Assembly (NCBI GenBank): GCA_016234115.1
Contig: JACRHD010000001.1
Location: 1-46,917, forward strand
Reading direction: 5' to 3'
From: Nitrospirota bacterium
Lineage (GTDB): Bacteria > Nitrospirota > Thermodesulfovibrionia > UBA6902
Length of the DNA: 46,917 bases
The notes beneath the pieces are model-generated. The model was not told where the DNA came from, did not search any database, and saw only the letters and a program-made list of their open reading frames with translations. Below are positions 37,013 to 46,917 of this stretch, in pieces (the first letter of the stretch is position 1; every line of letters begins with the position of its first letter). The position numbers and the translations under genes were made by a program.

Positions 37013-37783
37013 ATGGAAGACAAAGAAGCCAAATCGATACTTGAAGCAGTCCTCTTTATATCCGGAGATCCGATATCGCCTGACTCACTCAGCAGTATTC
37101 TGGAGGTAGACAGGGGAGAGCTGGACAGGCTTGTAAAGGAGCTGGTCAATGATTATACGATAAACAATACGGGCCTTCTCGTGGCTGAAGTTGCCGGCGG
37201 CGTGCAGATGGTCACCAATCCCGCCTGCGCCCCCTGGATCAGGAAGCTCCTCGCTACCTCTGTGCCCGCGAAATTGTCCCAGCAGTCGTTGGAGACCCTC
37301 GCCATCATTGCGTACAAACAGCCGATCATCAAGGCCGAGATCGAGGCCATCAGGGGCGTGAATTCAGACGGGGTAGTCAAAACACTCCTCGACAGGAAAC
37401 TGGTTAAAATCCTTGGCAGGAAGGAAGTCCCCGGCAGGCCGCTTATGTACGGCACGACAAAGGAGTTTCTCCAGCACTTCGGCTTAAAAGACCTCTCCGA
37501 GCTGCCGACACTGAAAGAGTTCCAGGAGTTTGAAACCCCCGAGGCGCCTGAGCAGGTCCCTTCTGAACAGGAGATGCCGGAATACGCCGGGACAGATCAG
37601 CAGCCGGCGGAGGAGTCTGTCGAAACTTCACAGGATGAAGTCCATGCCGAGGATGAAGGTGAAGCCGCAATTACTGAAAATGCAGACCCGGCAGAGGAAG
37701 AAACAATTGAGGATTCTGTTCACAGGGAAAATGATGATTCTGGTGAACACGATGAAGAAGAGCGTTCAGGGCAGTTGCCGTAA
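37013..37783 (+). CDS. scpB: chromosome segregation and condensation protein ScpB
   Basis: ScpB binds ScpA as part of the SMC complex that compacts chromosomes. The 256-residue protein has the two winged-helix domains (SILEAVLFISGDPISPDSLS; SQQSLETLAIIAYKQPIIKA, EIEAIRGVNSDGVVKTLLDR) and RPLMYGTTKEFLQHFGL. The family usually ends near here. An acidic tail of about 85 residues (from about 172) follows, rich in Glu. Its last 25 residues are duplicated at 42870-42940. A heptamer array replaces the usual ribosome-binding site. scpA is not in the window. Confidence 0.93.
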   Translation: MEDKEAKSILEAVLFISGDPISPDSLSSILEVDRGELDRLVKELVNDYTINNTGLLVAEVAGGVQMVTNPACAPWIRKLLATSVPAKLSQQSLETLAIIAYKQPIIKAEIEAIRGVNSDGVVKTLLDRKLVKILGRKEVPGRPLMYGTTKEFLQHFGLKDLSELPTLKEFQEFETPEAPEQVPSEQEMPEYAGTDQQPAEESVETSQDEVHAEDEGEAAITENADPAEEETIEDSVHRENDDSGEHDEEERSGQLP

Positions 37784-37831: not shown

Positions 37832-38554
37832 TTATGGTTCCGTGTTTTCCTGGTCTATAGGCCGTTTCGTCAGCTCCCTGATTGCATTTACAGCCTGACG
37901 GCACTTCTCTAACTCCAGCATCAGATCAGGCATCTGAATTAATAGCTCGGGATGCTGTTCAATAAGCTCTTCGAGATGTGCCAGCGCCCGGGGGTCTGAT
38001 GCGTTTGATCTGGTCGCTCTGACAAAGTTCTCCGCTGCGGCCTTAAAATCTCCCAGTCCCGCGCGCGATACCCCAAGATTTTTGTAAGCATTGTGGCGGG
38101 CAGGATTGATCTCTATAGCGGCCCGGCAGTATTTTTCAGCCTCTTTATATCTGCCTGACTGGTTTAGGCAATAACCAAGGTTATTGTTGATTAAATACCA
38201 ATCGTAGGCAGCACCTGTTTTCATAGAGAGCGCCTGTGAATAGAATTTTATTGCATTTTCAAAGTCATTCATTTTTTCCATAAGCTGACCCATGGAAAGA
38301 TAACATCGAACCTTGATTTCCGGATCATCGGATATATCAGAAAGTTTCCTTATGTATACCAATGCTTGCACCGGTTGGCCGGAATCCCAATAACACCCCG
38401 CCAATTCCCATAAAGCATCCTGATAGACGGCTTCAAGCCGGGTAAATTCCAGAAGAAGTTTTCTCTCTTCTTCCTCATGTGAGGGCACATTTCCTATTTT
38501 TCTTTTTCGCAAGCGGAAGGCAAAGCCCTCAGGAATATTTAAATCTTCCAACAT
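37832..38554 (-). CDS. TPR-repeat protein
   Basis: This 240-residue protein has several tetratricopeptide-like repeats, for example LWELAGCYWDSGQPVQALVY, CYLSMGQLMEKMNDFENAIK, NNNLGYCLNQSGRYKEAEKY and AYKNLGVSRAGLGDFKAAAE. TPRs mediate protein-protein contact, and no catalytic domain is present. Neither a signal peptide nor a membrane anchor is seen. It lies 18 bases downstream of the ParE-like toxin gene on the same strand, and may be co-transcribed with the toxin-antitoxin pair. Confidence 0.85.
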   Translation of the reverse strand: MLEDLNIPEGFAFRLRKRKIGNVPSHEEEERKLLLEFTRLEAVYQDALWELAGCYWDSGQPVQALVYIRKLSDISDDPEIKVRCYLSMGQLMEKMNDFENAIKFYSQALSMKTGAAYDWYLINNNLGYCLNQSGRYKEAEKYCRAAIEINPARHNAYKNLGVSRAGLGDFKAAAENFVRATRSNASDPRALAHLEELIEQHPELLIQMPDLMLELEKCRQAVNAIRELTKRPIDQENTEP

Positions 38555-38572
38555 ATTATATTATCTTCATAA

Positions 38573-38884
38573 TTACATTGATGTTTTTTGTTCAAGTAAC
38601 CTGTCGATCCAATATCGAGGTTCTCTGTGCAAATGAGCAACTGCAACAATGATGACCGTGCCGGAATCAATACCATATATGATCCCATACGGAAAGCGTG
38701 AAAGGAGACAACGCCTTATATCTTGTTCGATTTCCGCACTTGATAGAGGGAATGTCACTATTCTTCTGATAGACCGGTCAACCTCATCCAGGAATTGTGT
38801 CCCGAGTCCAAACGACTGGGAATTATACCAGACGACCGCATCATCAACTTCTAATTGCGCAGGCTTTAAGAAGCGGACTTTCAT
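38573..38884 (-). CDS. ParE/RelE-family toxin
   Basis: This 103-residue protein matches ParE-like toxins: VRFLKPAQLEVDDAVVWYNS, GLGTQFLDEVDRSIRRIVTF then RCLLSRFPYGIIYGID and VIIVAVAHLHREPRYW. Members act on gyrase or ribosome-bound mRNA, and which applies cannot be seen. The start overlaps the antitoxin gene by 4 bases, antitoxin first. Confidence 0.9.
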   Translation of the reverse strand: MKVRFLKPAQLEVDDAVVWYNSQSFGLGTQFLDEVDRSIRRIVTFPLSSAEIEQDIRRCLLSRFPYGIIYGIDSGTVIIVAVAHLHREPRYWIDRLLEQKTSM

Positions 38885-39102
38885 TTAGCGCGATACTTCT
38901 CCATTACCTGTTCATAGGGTACTGTTTCCAGTTTACCTGCTTTATAAGCCTGCCAACGTTTACGCGCTTCGTCCGCCCAGATGCTGTCAATTTCCGGATC
39001 CGGCTTGTCAAGCTGCATTAAGATAGAATCTACCAACTCGATCTTGTCGGTGTCCGGTAAAGATTTGATTTTTTCTGCAAGCTCGTTACTTATTGTTCTC
39101 AT
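38881..39102 (-). CDS. addiction-module antitoxin
   Basis: This 73-residue protein matches the putative addiction-module antitoxin family: KIKSLPDTDKIELVDSILMQ followed by LDKPDPEIDSIWADEARKRW and QAYKAGKLETVPYEQVM. It should neutralise the ParE-like protein. AAAGGAGACAACATC precedes the ATG. The short space from 39103 to 39156 separates it from the helicase gene. Confidence 0.88.
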   Translation of the reverse strand: MRTISNELAEKIKSLPDTDKIELVDSILMQLDKPDPEIDSIWADEARKRWQAYKAGKLETVPYEQVMEKYRAK

Positions 39103-39156: not shown

Positions 39157-42100
39157 CTATTTACTTTTGCAATTGAAACATACATTATCGCCTGGAATCG
39201 CCGGTAAACCACAACTGCATCTTCGTAACCTCGGCCCGGTTGTTGTTATAGGAAGGAATATCCGAGCGGTTGTCCCCTGTGCAGGTTCATCAATTGCTTC
39301 AAATAATTCCTCAGTAATTCTATGCCAGACTTGAACTTTATTTATGCATTCATCGATATCGTCTCTCACTTCATAAACCCAAAATCTTATCACATCCCAG
39401 CCTAACTCAATCAATCGCATATTTCTGATCTGGTCACGTCTGCATAACTCGCCATCCCAGCTTCTATGATATTTTTCTCCATCGACTTCAATATCTAACT
39501 TTCTTTTGTCCTGGAATAAGGCCAGATCCAGGGCATATTGTTCGACCTGATACTGAGGCATCGTCCTAATACCCTTTTTGTATAACTCAATATACAATAT
39601 CTTTTCCCACTCGGAAACAACAGCAGACGATGAGACAGGTGGATATATAGGTCCGTAATCTTTTTCTTCAGCTTCACTGACAATATCTTCAGGCTTAAGT
39701 TGATTAACATATTTCACAAATCGCTCCATATATTTAACCCCACAGGAGCTACAAGCGCTTTTGTCACCGACCACGATTAAAGCTGCCCTTGCCCGCGTTA
39801 TGGCAACATTGAATAAATTCCCGGTTCTTGCAAGAAATAGTTTAGAGCCCTCTCTTATGCCGGACGAAACCACAGGCGAAAATATCATTATGTCTCTTTC
39901 ATCGCCCTGAAATCTATTGATTGTGTTAACTAAAAAAGCGCGTCTAATAAGTTGTTCAGACAGCGTTTGATCCATATTCACTAAGTCTCTGATTCTATTT
40001 ACCTGTGGTATGAAAGGAGTGACCACCCCGATAGTTCCTTCATAATTTGTATTTATCAATCTTCTTAATTCATTAACAACAGCATCTGCTTCTGTTGGAT
40101 TTATGGAGCTTCCGGTGCTTGGACTTATAACATTACCTGTAATATCTATCCATCTGACAGCCGGCTCGGCCGGGATGCGCTTCAGCCGTTCATATTTAGT
40201 TGCAATTCTCAAACTGCCATCATAAAACTCCTTGTTTGAGAAATTAATAATATCGGCATGAGAGCGATGATGATCTCTCAAAACAACAATATCGGCTGAA
40301 GAACAAATGCCCTGACTCGTAGCCAATCCAAACAATGAATTTCCGGTATAACTCCAGCTTAAGAAGTCCTCATGAAGACCATATTTTTCGAGAAGTTGAA
40401 TGTCCTGATGTGTGTCAATAGAGCAGATATGCGTCAACTGTTTGCTGTCCCCAATAATTACTGCCCTTTTGGCTCTGTACAATAACGGCAAAGCTGACGC
40501 TATATCGCACTGACTCGCTTCATCTATAATGACCAAGTCAAAAAAGTTTGGCTCAAATGGTACCCTTCCTTTAACGGACAATGACGTTATGGCCCAACAT
40601 GAAAGAATGTTTGTCACTTTTTTCTGTAATTTATCAAACTGATTCCGGATATTTTGGCCAGGGTATCTATTCTCTGCTCTTGCCGTAACCATAATATTTA
40701 ACAGCGCGGTGTAATCACCTATTGCCTTACGCTGGTCTTTGGTCAGCCTGTCAGGCAAAAGACGGAGCCATGTTTCCCATAGCTCCTGTGAGTTGTCTGC
40801 TAATTCGTCCTCAATAGCTTTTGCTTCCTTTGATAATTGAAATAAGCTTTTGTGATCTTGCAGCTCTTTGAGTGACTTGAAATAGGTCGATATAGCAATT
40901 GCTTTCTGGAGACGATCATTGAGTTGATTAAGAATCGTGTAATAAGCGCCCAGTGAATTTTCGGATATGGCAACCTCCGTATCCTTAAGTTTAAAAGAAA
41001 AAATGTATTTCCTTAGATTTTCATAGGAAGAAGATGCCTTCTTACATCGGAAGCTTTTGAAAATAAACCATAGCAAACGCACAAAAAGAGGTTGTTTATT
41101 TTTATCGGAAGATTCAAGCGCTTTTGAAAATCCCTTTATGAGGGCTTCTATATTCTGAAATACTTTTTCATCCCAATTCCTAATCTGTGCAAATAACTCT
41201 TCCCCAAATAATTCTCTCAATTTCTCTACGTCTTGTTCAAGTTTGTCGGTGATATTCCTGATTCTCAAAAAGTTATCCTGCGAGTGTCTTATCTCTTCCA
41301 TTCTTTTTACAAGTTCATTATGCTTCTGTTTCAAAGTTTCATATTGATCTTTGTTCGCTTTTGATGAACTTGACGAAAGAAGTCCTGATAAGTATTGGGC
41401 CAATTCGGCCTGCAGCTCATTACTGCCTAAGCGTAACATTACCGGCTTTGAAGTAAGACCGTTTACTCTTTCTCCTACAACATCAACGGCTTTATTATTC
41501 TTGCTTGCAAACAGCACTGTTTGTCCTTGATAAACTGCATTAATAATTATGCTCGTCACCACCTGGCTTTTCCCTGTGCCTGGCGGCCCTGTCACGACTG
41601 TTAAGGAAGACTGCAGAGCCTTTCTGACAGCTTCTCTTTGTTCATCATTTAATGGCAATGGTTCTATTAACGGTATATTTTTCTGTTCGGGTGCGGGAAA
41701 TTCTCGGGGGATCAAGTGACCTAATGCGCTTGATTTATATCTTTCAACACTTAATTGCTTGAAATCGGTCAGCTCTTTTTCCAACCCTTGTGTAAATTTT
41801 GACCGTTCAGAGAAAAATATCGCTGCAGCATTATATATCCCCTGCGTTTTGGCGTCATTTAATTTCATTGTAGTGAGGTTATCAGGCATTATCGTTTCAA
41901 CCCATCGCCATTGGGGACGTATCTGTTGCAGGCGAATTGCGATTTCATCGAAATCCGGCTGGTCTTCCAGAGGATTATTCAATCCAAGTTCATCTGATAT
42001 AATCATTATTTCTTCAAGCAATACATTCTTTTTTAAACCGGATACATTTTCTAATGCTGTAAAGTTAAATCTTGGCACTTCATCTATTAAAAACGGCGTC

Positions 42101-42663
42101 CCTCCATATAAAAACGATGGGGTATCAAAAGGAATGAGCATAAGCGGGTCAACAAAGAAAGTCGAACCCGATCTGGCTTTTCGTAAATAAATGGGATAGC
42201 CAAGCTGTAAAACGAGCCGATGTTTATCTTGACGAACTTTATTGATTGCTCTCTTGCAGTTGTCTGATGAATATAGATTTGTTATGTCATCTAAAAGCTG
42301 CGGCAAAGCTGTTAGTTGTCCATAATCCAGGGGTTCATATTTACTGGAAGCAAAAGCCCACAGTTCAGTGTCCATATCCCGCGACAGGCAGTCTAAATAA
42401 TAGGACGATAGTCTTGATAATGGTGTGTCAGCATATTTCTTTGTTTCCCTCGGTTGTTGCGATGGTATCTCACCCGTACTTAAACTCCAATAATATTCTT
42501 TGTCCTGATAAACTTTTCCCTTTAATTGATAATAAAGAATTTTATTTACTGATCGAACATCGATGTTATCACTGAACTTCTCATTAATCTTAAACGCAAT
42601 CTCTTTTGCTTTTAATTTCCCTTGATCTTTTAGAATGGCGATTATTCTATCTTCAATTTCCAT
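39157..42663 (-). CDS. winged-helix / SF1 helicase / Vsr-like nuclease / zinc-ribbon fusion, candidate defence protein
   Basis: This 1168-residue protein combines four parts. A winged helix (about 1-62) has EDRIIAILKDQGKLKAKEIA. An SF1 UPF1/DNA2-like helicase (about 335-965) has Walker A GPPGTGKS (359-366), DEASQ (714-718), GDSKQL (738-743), RDHHRSH (796-802), NTINRFQGDERD (913-924) and NVAITRAR (952-959), with a coiled-coil insertion about 430-620. A Vsr/DUF559-like nuclease (about 1018-1112) has E1020, D1046, E1059-x-D1061 and RRDQIRNMRLIELGWDVIRF. A zinc ribbon closes (C1149, C1151, C1162, C1165). Single-protein helicase-Vsr fusions are known or suspected antiphage systems. This domain set is close to Hhe-type proteins but without an obvious DUF4011. 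It is AT-richer than its neighbours. No ribosome-binding site precedes the ATG. Confidence 0.88.
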   Translation of the reverse strand: MEIEDRIIAILKDQGKLKAKEIAFKINEKFSDNIDVRSVNKILYYQLKGKVYQDKEYYWSLSTGEIPSQQPRETKKYADTPLSRLSSYYLDCLSRDMDTELWAFASSKYEPLDYGQLTALPQLLDDITNLYSSDNCKRAINKVRQDKHRLVLQLGYPIYLRKARSGSTFFVDPLMLIPFDTPSFLYGGTPFLIDEVPRFNFTALENVSGLKKNVLLEEIMIISDELGLNNPLEDQPDFDEIAIRLQQIRPQWRWVETIMPDNLTTMKLNDAKTQGIYNAAAIFFSERSKFTQGLEKELTDFKQLSVERYKSSALGHLIPREFPAPEQKNIPLIEPLPLNDEQREAVRKALQSSLTVVTGPPGTGKSQVVTSIIINAVYQGQTVLFASKNNKAVDVVGERVNGLTSKPVMLRLGSNELQAELAQYLSGLLSSSSSKANKDQYETLKQKHNELVKRMEEIRHSQDNFLRIRNITDKLEQDVEKLRELFGEELFAQIRNWDEKVFQNIEALIKGFSKALESSDKNKQPLFVRLLWFIFKSFRCKKASSSYENLRKYIFSFKLKDTEVAISENSLGAYYTILNQLNDRLQKAIAISTYFKSLKELQDHKSLFQLSKEAKAIEDELADNSQELWETWLRLLPDRLTKDQRKAIGDYTALLNIMVTARAENRYPGQNIRNQFDKLQKKVTNILSCWAITSLSVKGRVPFEPNFFDLVIIDEASQCDIASALPLLYRAKRAVIIGDSKQLTHICSIDTHQDIQLLEKYGLHEDFLSWSYTGNSLFGLATSQGICSSADIVVLRDHHRSHADIINFSNKEFYDGSLRIATKYERLKRIPAEPAVRWIDITGNVISPSTGSSINPTEADAVVNELRRLINTNYEGTIGVVTPFIPQVNRIRDLVNMDQTLSEQLIRRAFLVNTINRFQGDERDIMIFSPVVSSGIREGSKLFLARTGNLFNVAITRARAALIVVGDKSACSSCGVKYMERFVKYVNQLKPEDIVSEAEEKDYGPIYPPVSSSAVVSEWEKILYIELYKKGIRTMPQYQVEQYALDLALFQDKRKLDIEVDGEKYHRSWDGELCRRDQIRNMRLIELGWDVIRFWVYEVRDDIDECINKVQVWHRITEELFEAIDEPAQGTTARIFLPITTTGPRLRRCSCGLPAIPGDNVCFNCKSK

Positions 42664-42842: not shown

Positions 42843-42961
42843 AGGGCGCAGTTGAAGATGCCGTATTCACAGAGGAAGAAACAATTGAGGAACCTGTTCA
42901 CCGGGAAATTGATGATCCCGGAGAACCCGATGAAGAAAATAGGGCGGGGCACCCGCTTTAA
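42842..42961 (+). pseudogene. detached copy of the scpB acidic tail
   Basis: The frame encodes TEEETIEEPVHREIDDPGEP then DEENRAGHPL and stops at TAA 42959-42961. It parallels the ScpB end EEETIEDSVHRENDDSGEHD. A 22-base block (42870-42891) is identical to 37692-37713, and about 61 of 71 bases match overall by hand count. No ScpB core precedes it. It overlaps the asnS stop. It forms the right-hand direct repeat around the 37784-42840 block. Confidence 0.82.
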
Positions 42962-45551: not shown

Positions 45552-46917
45552 GGCGCATCCGGGTTCTTCATGGGTCTACACAAGATATAGGGGTTGAAGG
45601 TATTCTATGAGGTATGGACGAAAAAGCACTGTTTACAAGAATATTGAGAATCAAGCTTCCGTGGTTTGTGAAGCAGGTGGTAATGGACGAAGTGGCACAG
45701 CGGATCGACATTTATGTAGATCACGAAAAGGACATACGGGTAAGGTGTCCGGAATGTGGAGAATTTTACGGCATGTATGATCACTCGCCGGAGCGAGTAT
45801 ATCGTCATTTGAATACCTGTCAGATGGAGACGTACATTCATGTGAGGCCGCCGAGGGTGAATTGCCCGAAACATGGAATAAAGCAGATCAACTCGGAAGT
45901 AGGGGAGAACGGCTCGGACATGACGTATGCCTTTGAGAGCCATGTGATCCGTGTGGCTCAGGAGTGCAGTATTGAGGCAACGGCCCGGCTCTGCGGATTG
46001 AGCTGGGACAGGAGTTGGAATGCCCTGGAGCGGGCAGTCAACCGTGGCTTGGGGCGCAAGGCGCATCGAGTACCCAGCCGCATTGGCGTGGATGAGAAGT
46101 CGATAGCCAAAGGGCACAAATATGAATCGTTGGTGTATGACATAGATGGCGGCACGGTTGAGTTTGTATGGGACGATCGCGGGCAGGAAAGCCTTGAAAG
46201 CTATTATAGGCAGTTTACCGAAGAGGAGCTTGCCGGCATTGAGGCAGTAGCTATGGACATGTGGGATCCGTATATTGCTGCGACGAAGGCGCATGTGCCT
46301 GAGGCTGAGAAGAAGATCGTATTTGATCGCTTTCACGTAATGAAGCATGTCCTGACTGCGGTTGACGAGGTCCGAAAGAGCGAGCACCGCGAGCTTTCCG
46401 AAGGAGGCAAGGAAACGCTGAAAGGGACCAGGTATCTGTGGCTGTGGAGCCGGGAGAATATTCCGCAGTGGAGGCAGGAAGAATTCGACGTATTACGGGC
46501 AAAAGACCTGAAGGTGTGCCGGGCTTGGGCAATCAAGGAAAACCTTCGGCATCTGTGGGATTATCGATATGCGGCCTCTATGAGAAAATACTTCAGTCGG
46601 TGGTATTTCTGGGCTGCTCATTCGCGCCTGGAGCCCATCAAGAAGGCCGCAAAGACGGTCAAGGCACATATAGACAACATTGTGACCTATGCGCGGCATC
46701 GCATCACCAATGCTTTGGGCGAGGCGATCAACGGCAAGATCGAGAAGATCAAGAGAATGGCTTGTGGTTTCCGTAATCGTTATCATTATCGAACCGCTAT
46801 CTACTTTCACTGCGGCGGTCTGGATTTATTCCCGAAACCACCGACCGATCCAATACTAAAATTCAGGTCCTTCTGACACAATATGTTGGGGCTACCCATG
46901 AGAAAGTCTGATGCGGC
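45552..46917 (+). mobile_element. ISL3-family insertion sequence
   Basis: The left end GGCGCATCCGGGTTCTTCAT (45552-45571) and the right end, reading inward GCCGCATCAGACTTTCTCAT (46917-46898), are imperfect inverted repeats. Both continue into GGGT, and weak pairing continues to about 28 bases. They bound one transposase gene. The element begins immediately after the msrB stop. Its right end coincides with the window edge, so it may extend slightly further, and the 8-bp target duplication of ISL3 elements cannot be checked. Confidence 0.85.
45614..46876 (+). CDS. ISL3-family transposase
   Basis: This 420-residue transposase has an N-terminal zinc-finger-like region (RCPECGEF, CQMETYIHVRPPRVNCPKHG) and an HTH. 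The DDE catalytic domain has D160 (IGVDEKSIAKGHKY), D215 (AVAMDMWDPY) and the Glu near ALGEAINGKIEKIKRMACGF. DRFHVMKHV is a further family motif. The frame is intact, so the element may be active. No ribosome-binding site at a proper distance was found. Confidence 0.95.
   Translation: MDEKALFTRILRIKLPWFVKQVVMDEVAQRIDIYVDHEKDIRVRCPECGEFYGMYDHSPERVYRHLNTCQMETYIHVRPPRVNCPKHGIKQINSEVGENGSDMTYAFESHVIRVAQECSIEATARLCGLSWDRSWNALERAVNRGLGRKAHRVPSRIGVDEKSIAKGHKYESLVYDIDGGTVEFVWDDRGQESLESYYRQFTEEELAGIEAVAMDMWDPYIAATKAHVPEAEKKIVFDRFHVMKHVLTAVDEVRKSEHRELSEGGKETLKGTRYLWLWSRENIPQWRQEEFDVLRAKDLKVCRAWAIKENLRHLWDYRYAASMRKYFSRWYFWAAHSRLEPIKKAAKTVKAHIDNIVTYARHRITNALGEAINGKIEKIKRMACGFRNRYHYRTAIYFHCGGLDLFPKPPTDPILKFRSF

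Follow-up and report, generated by a model that had tools for sequence, protein, structure and literature searches.

A horizontally acquired UPF1-like helicase–nuclease, probably anti-phage, of a clade whose N-terminal winged helix resembles Z-alpha domains by profile

We analysed a 46,917-nucleotide stretch of DNA from a Nitrospirota bacterium (assembly GCA_016234115.1, contig JACRHD010000001.1, positions 1 to 46,917; hereafter the window), and describe here one gene within it, encoding a helicase–nuclease of 1168 residues. On a balance that leans somewhat in its favour, the protein is a horizontally acquired single-polypeptide anti-phage enzyme, acting alone or as a motor–nuclease module and with a sensor that may be Z-alpha-like. 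A winged helix, a UPF1-like superfamily 1 (SF1) motor with its main motifs, the acidic centre of a nuclease, and relatives in Type I restriction–modification (R-M), DrmD and Zorya-type operons are established at the level of sequence; beyond these we infer phage defence by the window copy, its substrate, a sensor role for the winged helix and recognition of Z-form nucleic acid. New in this analysis is the result, at the level of sequence profiles, that the N-terminal domain of the clade matches the Z-alpha domains of solved structures first. The Z-alpha family comprises the sensors used by animals for left-handed DNA and RNA. A first-pass annotation, made from the sequence alone, had overlooked this most unusual part of the protein, the winged helix whose clade profile resembles Z-alpha. 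The gene and the parts of its product lie in the window as follows.

39157..42663, minus strand: helicase–nuclease gene, 1168 residues from ATG (list of open reading frames (ORFs), Pfam)
42481..42663, minus strand: N-terminal winged helix, residues 1–61, Z-alpha-like in the clade profile, with N40, Y44 and W59
41806..42216, minus strand: beta-rich region preceding the motor, residues 150–286 (predicted secondary structure)
41566..41589, minus strand: Walker A motif GPPGTGKS, residues 359–366
40606..41421, minus strand: long helical insertion past Walker A, residues 415–686 (AlphaFold model)
39745..40605, minus strand: remaining SF1 core, residues 687–973
39331..39615, minus strand: Vsr/MTES_1575-type PD-(D/E)xK nuclease, residues 1017–1111
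39169..39219, minus strand: C-x-C-x10-C-x2-C tail, residues 1149–1165, in the window member only

The fusion of a winged helix, an SF1 helicase and a Vsr/DUF559-like nuclease that had been read from this ORF is borne out by both Pfam (AAA_12 1.5e-31, AAA_11 1.3e-29, MTES_1575 1.3e-11 at 44.8 bits against a cut-off of 38.2, DUF559 2.3e-7) and an AlphaFold model built on 17 sequences (mean predicted local distance difference test score (pLDDT) 81.9, predicted TM-score 0.72), in which the winged helix occupies residues 3–61 in the order α-α-α-β-β. The SF1 core carries the motifs DEAS (714–717), GDxxQL (738–743), QGxE (919–922) and NVAxxRA (952–958). Foldseek of the full model returns senataxin, IGHMBP2 and UPF1 first and Dna2 lower; the motors of UPF1 and senataxin move 5′–3′ on single-stranded RNA or DNA, and the kinship would suit movement of the same kind here. 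By analogy with UPF1, the beta-rich region at 150–286 is probably OB/1B-like. The nuclease is modelled as a helix (1018–1029), three strands, a helix (1072–1086) and a strand, and the acids proposed for its centre in the first-pass annotation (E1020, D1046, E1059 and D1061) are identical in all 13 aligned family rows that cover the region. The four cysteines of the C-terminal zinc ribbon noted alongside them are present (Cys 1149, 1151, 1162 and 1165), but they lie in a disordered tail modelled with low confidence and found in one of 13 family members, and we set the tail aside as a component of the mechanism. It looks like a lineage-local add-on, since an unrelated 472-residue ORF from a genome of the same order (L012:166-1584) also ends in a C-x-C-G...C-x-x-C tail.

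Relatives were gathered by a profile scan of genome contigs (80 loci) and viral contigs (11 loci). In blastp against the window protein, seven loci (L036, L037, L038, L039, L116, L117 and L118) score 696–1064 bits over most of the length, at 38–49% identity, and the next match falls to at most 349 bits; L037 and L117 are without the N-terminus, and L117, near-identical to L118, is left out of later counts. A profile (A2) scan of phylum-level samples added G262, G479, G561, G1031, G1438 and G1486. The family is sporadic, with members in 1 of 394 other genomes in the sample of the window's own phylum (G262), and in 2 of 394 (G479, G561), 1 of 397 (G1031) and 2 of 289 (G1438, G1486) elsewhere, that is, in 6 of 1,474 with the sample centres excluded; few candidates were scored per genome, so these counts are lower bounds. 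Family relatives reach 673–1135 bits, G561 466 and the two pieces of the split G1438 380 and 307, against a maximum of 349 for relatives resembling CnuH, the helicase of Type III-B CoCoNuTs. G741 (466 bits) passed the scan but lies outside the clade, and the weak G200, G270 and G363 (206–246 bits) were not counted. In a FastTree phylogeny of 653 helicase columns from 44 sequences hand-picked from the loci, rooted by choice on L079, 12 family tips group together with support 0.998 (only 0.835 for the node that includes G561), and eight III-B-like CnuH tips (Rhizobium, Rhodobacterales and L119) form another clade with support 1.0. Four tips first labelled as CoCoNuT-type (CNU; L046, L048, L049 and L050) fall elsewhere on the tree, the label having been too wide. 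A tree neighbour of the family, L045:7033-10901 (Anaerolineales, 1289 residues), has the same helicase type and an N-terminus that is WYL-like by eye.

We regard the window protein as a probable phage-defence enzyme because some of its relatives are found within established antiviral gene clusters. Context was read at 13 family loci including the window, and recognised defence genes occur at five of these, or at four without L037 (counts that carry no background rate). At L038 the helicase lies in a single run with Type I R-M genes, 1 nt after HsdR and overlapping HsdS by 13 nt, followed by an AAA ATPase and HsdM. At L150 it overlaps DrmD (1.5e-279) by 4 nt, and three more genes follow, the last matching ZacB (3.3e-16). 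At L152, genes resembling ZorA (7.9e-9), ZorB (1.5e-13) and ZorC (1.7e-21) precede a helicase within which the contig ends, and whose C-terminal part opens contig L153 (L152:2-6561 and L153:3-1031); the gene thus follows ZorC, as ZorD does in type I Zorya, and no ZorD-like gene was seen on reading the ORFs of L153. L147 has an SMODS/AGS_C cyclase ~1.3 kb upstream of the family helicase, and L037 a C5 cytosine methylase ~5.6 kb away, a weak support. Other family neighbours are an integrase (L036), Fic (L116), DUF2779 (L151) and UvrD (L148), and a more distant relative, L149, has DrmD-like and DruE-like neighbours. The three operons, together with the absence of family members from genus-mates (0 of 9), uphold the accessory and likely defensive role first proposed for the gene. 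The protein defines a clade of CnuH-like helicase–nucleases outside CoCoNuTs, best read as a single-protein or modular defence nuclease, and its occurrence in Type I R-M, DrmD and Zorya-type operons suggests that motor–nuclease modules are exchanged between defence systems. As a separate observation, in the stretch L150:1-13200 the helicase and DrmD are followed by a protein whose N-terminus has, by eye, an Hsp70/actin-like motif, then by an unknown protein, one resembling ZacB/PLD and another helicase-like ORF, a combination that may be undescribed.

The N-terminal domain is found in 11 of 13 members (two pieces of G1438 being counted as one). A profile (A4) of these 11, searched against every PDB chain sequence, had 67 hits at an expectation value (E) of 10 or below, and the top nine are all Z-alpha: in order, 4hob (1.2e-5), 4wcg, PKZ 4kmf, 2rvc, 4lb5, 5j6x, ZBP1 9j8g, 1j75 and the E3L/ADAR chimera 7c0i (0.0063). 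We take 4hob to be ORF112, its aligned stretch being identical to that in 4wcg. The L116 domain alone drew nine matches, every one Z-alpha (E 0.042 to 1.3), and the winged-helix region of five III-B CnuH proteins drew two, neither of them Z-alpha. Window residues N40, Y44 and W59 fall at the positions of ADAR1 N173, Y177 and W195 (numbering from PMC11298590). Across the 11 members the Asn is kept in nine, the Tyr in seven (all of which also have the Asn) and the wing Trp in every one, so that the NxxxY of helix 3 is present in seven, the window among them, and lost in four. A basic residue stands at what we take to be the position of ADAR1 K169 in 8 of 11 members, with valine in the window. 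The predicted structure of the window domain (pLDDT 93.0) has the three helices and two- to three-stranded wing of the Z-alpha type, and Foldseek places Z-alpha/Z-beta domains of ZBP1 and PKZ at ranks 1–7 (E 4.4e-3 to 2.3e-2), with BlaI at rank 8.

The family domain thus resembles the Z-alpha domains of ZBP1, PKZ, ADAR1, E3L, ORF112 and I73R in its winged helix and, in most members, in NxxxY and the wing Trp; it differs in being bacterial and in its wing, as set out below. For the clade as a whole, sequence comparison gives moderate support to a Z-alpha-like domain, and we put forward Z-form binding by it as a testable hypothesis. The bacterial Z-alpha-like domains reported in PMC11298590 are without N173/Y177 and bind no Z-form, whereas the present clade keeps both residues in most members; Z-alpha-related folds have also been proposed in some prokaryote arsR and archaeal TFE proteins (PMC11293857). 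Our searches of the open-licence literature turned up no anti-phage helicase with a Z-alpha-like domain, a weak absence. A scan of a phage collection with the N-terminal domain gave matches at E 2 or worse throughout. Other defence genes may encode a domain of this kind: an ATP-binding protein encoded before a multiubiquitin/ThiF operon on a Citrobacter koseri plasmid (L158:6983-11611) has a similar domain at its N-terminus (5e-4), and an EH-signature protein on a P. aeruginosa plasmid (L157:5885-10249) has a similar C-terminal winged-helix stretch (5e-3) that includes both NxxxY and Trp; a DEAD/DEAH helicase comes next.

Several results weigh against a defence enzyme with a Z-alpha-like sensor. 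The activity of every family member is a prediction from sequence only; at 8 of 13 family loci no defence gene was recognised in the stretch examined (several being cut by contig ends), and the window locus offers only a toxin–antitoxin pair as neighbouring defence-type genes. The N-terminal domain, missing in L037 and G561, is not essential to the family. Its wing prolines (pPxW) are absent from all 11 members. Searched alone against PDB, the window domain drew two matches, neither Z-alpha, the G1031 domain five, of which three are Z-alpha (E at least 0.3 each), and the Citrobacter plasmid domain four, none Z-alpha. Foldseek of the window domain gave no row at E 0.001 or better. In VIA-align, I73R (Z 10.4, root-mean-square deviation 1.7, 62 aligned) and PKZ (9.7; 1.4, 55) are accompanied by a Bacillus regulator (9.5; 1.7, 60) and by many MarR/Fur-type rows near 9; comparison of the predicted fold therefore fails to separate Z-alpha from MarR/Fur, and fold alone decides nothing.

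There is an even chance that the protein is the same defence enzyme with an ordinary winged helix, a reader of B-DNA or of modified bases, its Z-alpha likeness being generic fold plus chance. Members of the domain hit Pfam HTH_24 (best 0.00044) and MarR no less well than they hit z-alpha (matched by 3 of 11, best 0.0046; no match for the window domain at E up to 10), the VIA-align Z scores of MarR/Fur-type rows (~9.5–8.7) tie with those of Z-alpha rows (10.4–8.7), and the losses of the wing prolines and of NxxxY fit such a reader. MarR-type winged helices are far commoner than Z-alpha in PDB, and the top-nine ranking of Z-alpha counts against this explanation for that reason; so do the L116 matches, though each is individually weak, and the failure of the III-B CnuH region to find Z-alpha. 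From the literature, endonuclease-fused winged helices are reported to read N6-methyladenine in Type IV systems (PMC11037411), and bacterial Z-alpha-like domains elsewhere bound no Z-form, but these were the ones without N173/Y177 (PMC11298590).

Returning to the favoured reading of a single-polypeptide or modular anti-phage enzyme, the N-terminal domain would recognise an unusual duplex arising in phage replication or transcription, possibly DNA or RNA that is left-handed or under torsional stress, because the domain is Z-alpha-like in the clade. The motor would then load on the adjacent single strand and translocate, so that the nuclease fused to it reaches the invading nucleic acid; the enzyme would act alone in some lineages and, in others, as the motor–nuclease module of a larger system. 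The fullest version, a bacterial Z-nucleic-acid-sensing immune enzyme in which a winged helix of Z-alpha kin senses left-handed DNA or RNA behind phage polymerases and directs cleavage through the UPF1-like helicase and Vsr nuclease, as a module shared with Zorya, DrmD and Type I R-M operons, we consider unlikely. If the N-terminal domain does bind Z-form, left-handed nucleic-acid sensing in antiviral immunity would have a prokaryotic counterpart.

The domain order itself is not new. The first-pass annotation had thought it possibly undescribed, yet a winged helix, UPF1-like SF1 helicase and Vsr nuclease are already known from CnuH of Type III-B CoCoNuTs, which, according to PMC11090510, are mainly alphaproteobacterial, carry an N-terminal winged helix described as Sul7s-like, a helical insertion in the helicase and a fused Vsr nuclease, and are accompanied by CnuA, B, C and D. 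The window protein shares with this CnuH, so far as described there, the winged helix, the large insertion after Walker A (helices 415–686) and the C-terminal Vsr-like nuclease. It differs in its separate clade, its extra Cys tail, the absence of adjoining CnuA/B/C/D and an N-terminal domain that is Z-alpha-like by family profile. That it is a stranded Type III-B CnuH, in need of CnuA-D partners encoded elsewhere or lost, is improbable: besides the shared domain order and insertion, it has 32% identity to Rhizobium CnuH-like proteins from five-gene clusters (helicase, coiled-coil protein, AAA_5 protein matching PDC-M26A, DUF2357 protein and 785-residue protein, in that order, which we infer to be Type III-B CoCoNuTs), but the bit-score gap and the separate, well-supported clades set the two apart, and no CoCoNuT gene set was seen at family loci, the window gene having antitoxin, toxin, TPR and asnS as neighbours. 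A III-B CnuB query found no match in the window's own genome, in a search without a positive control, and a DUF2357 query likewise found none, in a search that detected 0 of 14 controls and so proves nothing. We reject membership in CoCoNuT III-B on the lack of a CnuA-D operon and on the position outside the III-B clade.

Nor does the protein belong to the other systems compared, and all nearest curated models score far under their cut-offs. Like the anti-phage Hhe (NF042953, PDLC02194), it joins an AAA_11/AAA_12-type helicase to an MTES/Vsr-type nuclease in one protein; unlike Hhe it has no DUF4011, as already noted on first reading and confirmed by the lack of a Pfam match, and it is 1,168 residues long against 1,797 for the model; it scores 105.9 bits where the cut-off is 2000, and Hhe is rejected. 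Anti-phage ProA (NF058533; 224.3 against 1500) is rejected too, and an IGHMBP2-type model reaches 147 against 349. Among PADLOC models, MkoC (2.4e-66) matches best, ahead of PDC-S37 (7.7e-63), with MkoA and Hhe also present, each mainly over the motor. The likeness to Mokosh (MkoA, MkoC) lies in the UPF1-like SF1 helicase; the match stops at residue 973, before the nuclease. MkoC of type II Mokosh is a helicase with a C-terminal PLD nuclease, and type II membership is rejected, Pfam finding no PLD domain in the window protein and MTES_1575 instead. The open-licence literature yielded no report of stand-alone SF1-Vsr proteins or of such Zorya variants, again a weak absence, and a search there on ProA gave no pertinent paper.

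The helicase gene lies in a low-GC insert flanked by scpB and asnS, together with a TPR gene and a toxin–antitoxin-like pair (Unstab_antitox/ParE).

37675..37773, plus strand: left copy of a 99-nt repeat, the 3′ tail of intact scpB
37832..38554, minus strand: TPR protein (Pfam)
38573..38884, minus strand: ParE-like toxin ORF (ParE_toxin 8.7e-6, Pfam)
38881..39102, minus strand: antitoxin-like ORF (Unstab_antitox 1.3e-15, profile match), 54 nt downstream of the helicase
42853..42951, plus strand: right copy of the repeat, a remnant ScpB C-terminus at the far insert border, next to asnS

The gene has the marks of a horizontally acquired, accessory one, since a second scpB tail bounds the insert, scpB and asnS stand ~0.4 kb apart with nothing between them in the genus-mate G001 (an empty site), and its GC fraction (0.394) is lower than those of scpB (0.534) and asnS (0.549). 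The flanking direct repeats reported on first reading are real (99 nt, 78% identical), and turn out to be the 3′ end of scpB and the relic of a second such end, the right copy being readable as a ScpB C-terminus; the scpB regions of genus-mates gave no alignment with either copy beyond chance, and the donor was not found. The toxin–antitoxin and TPR genes, also present as first reported and taken then as support for defence, stand beside the helicase at no other family locus (from ORF lists, with no profile run per ORF), and we set them aside as partners; ZorA, ZorB and ZorC are not among the window gene's neighbours. A housekeeping DNA-repair or RNA-surveillance helicase, for which the UPF1/IGHMBP2/senataxin/Dna2-like motor and the setting of the window and G262 members among housekeeping genes would speak, is very unlikely given the sporadic distribution, the relatives' defence operons and, in place of conservation at the same locus, the empty site in the genus-mate. 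Near the end of the window, at 45614-46876, lies an ISL3-family transposase (DDE_Tnp_ISL3 1.2e-71).

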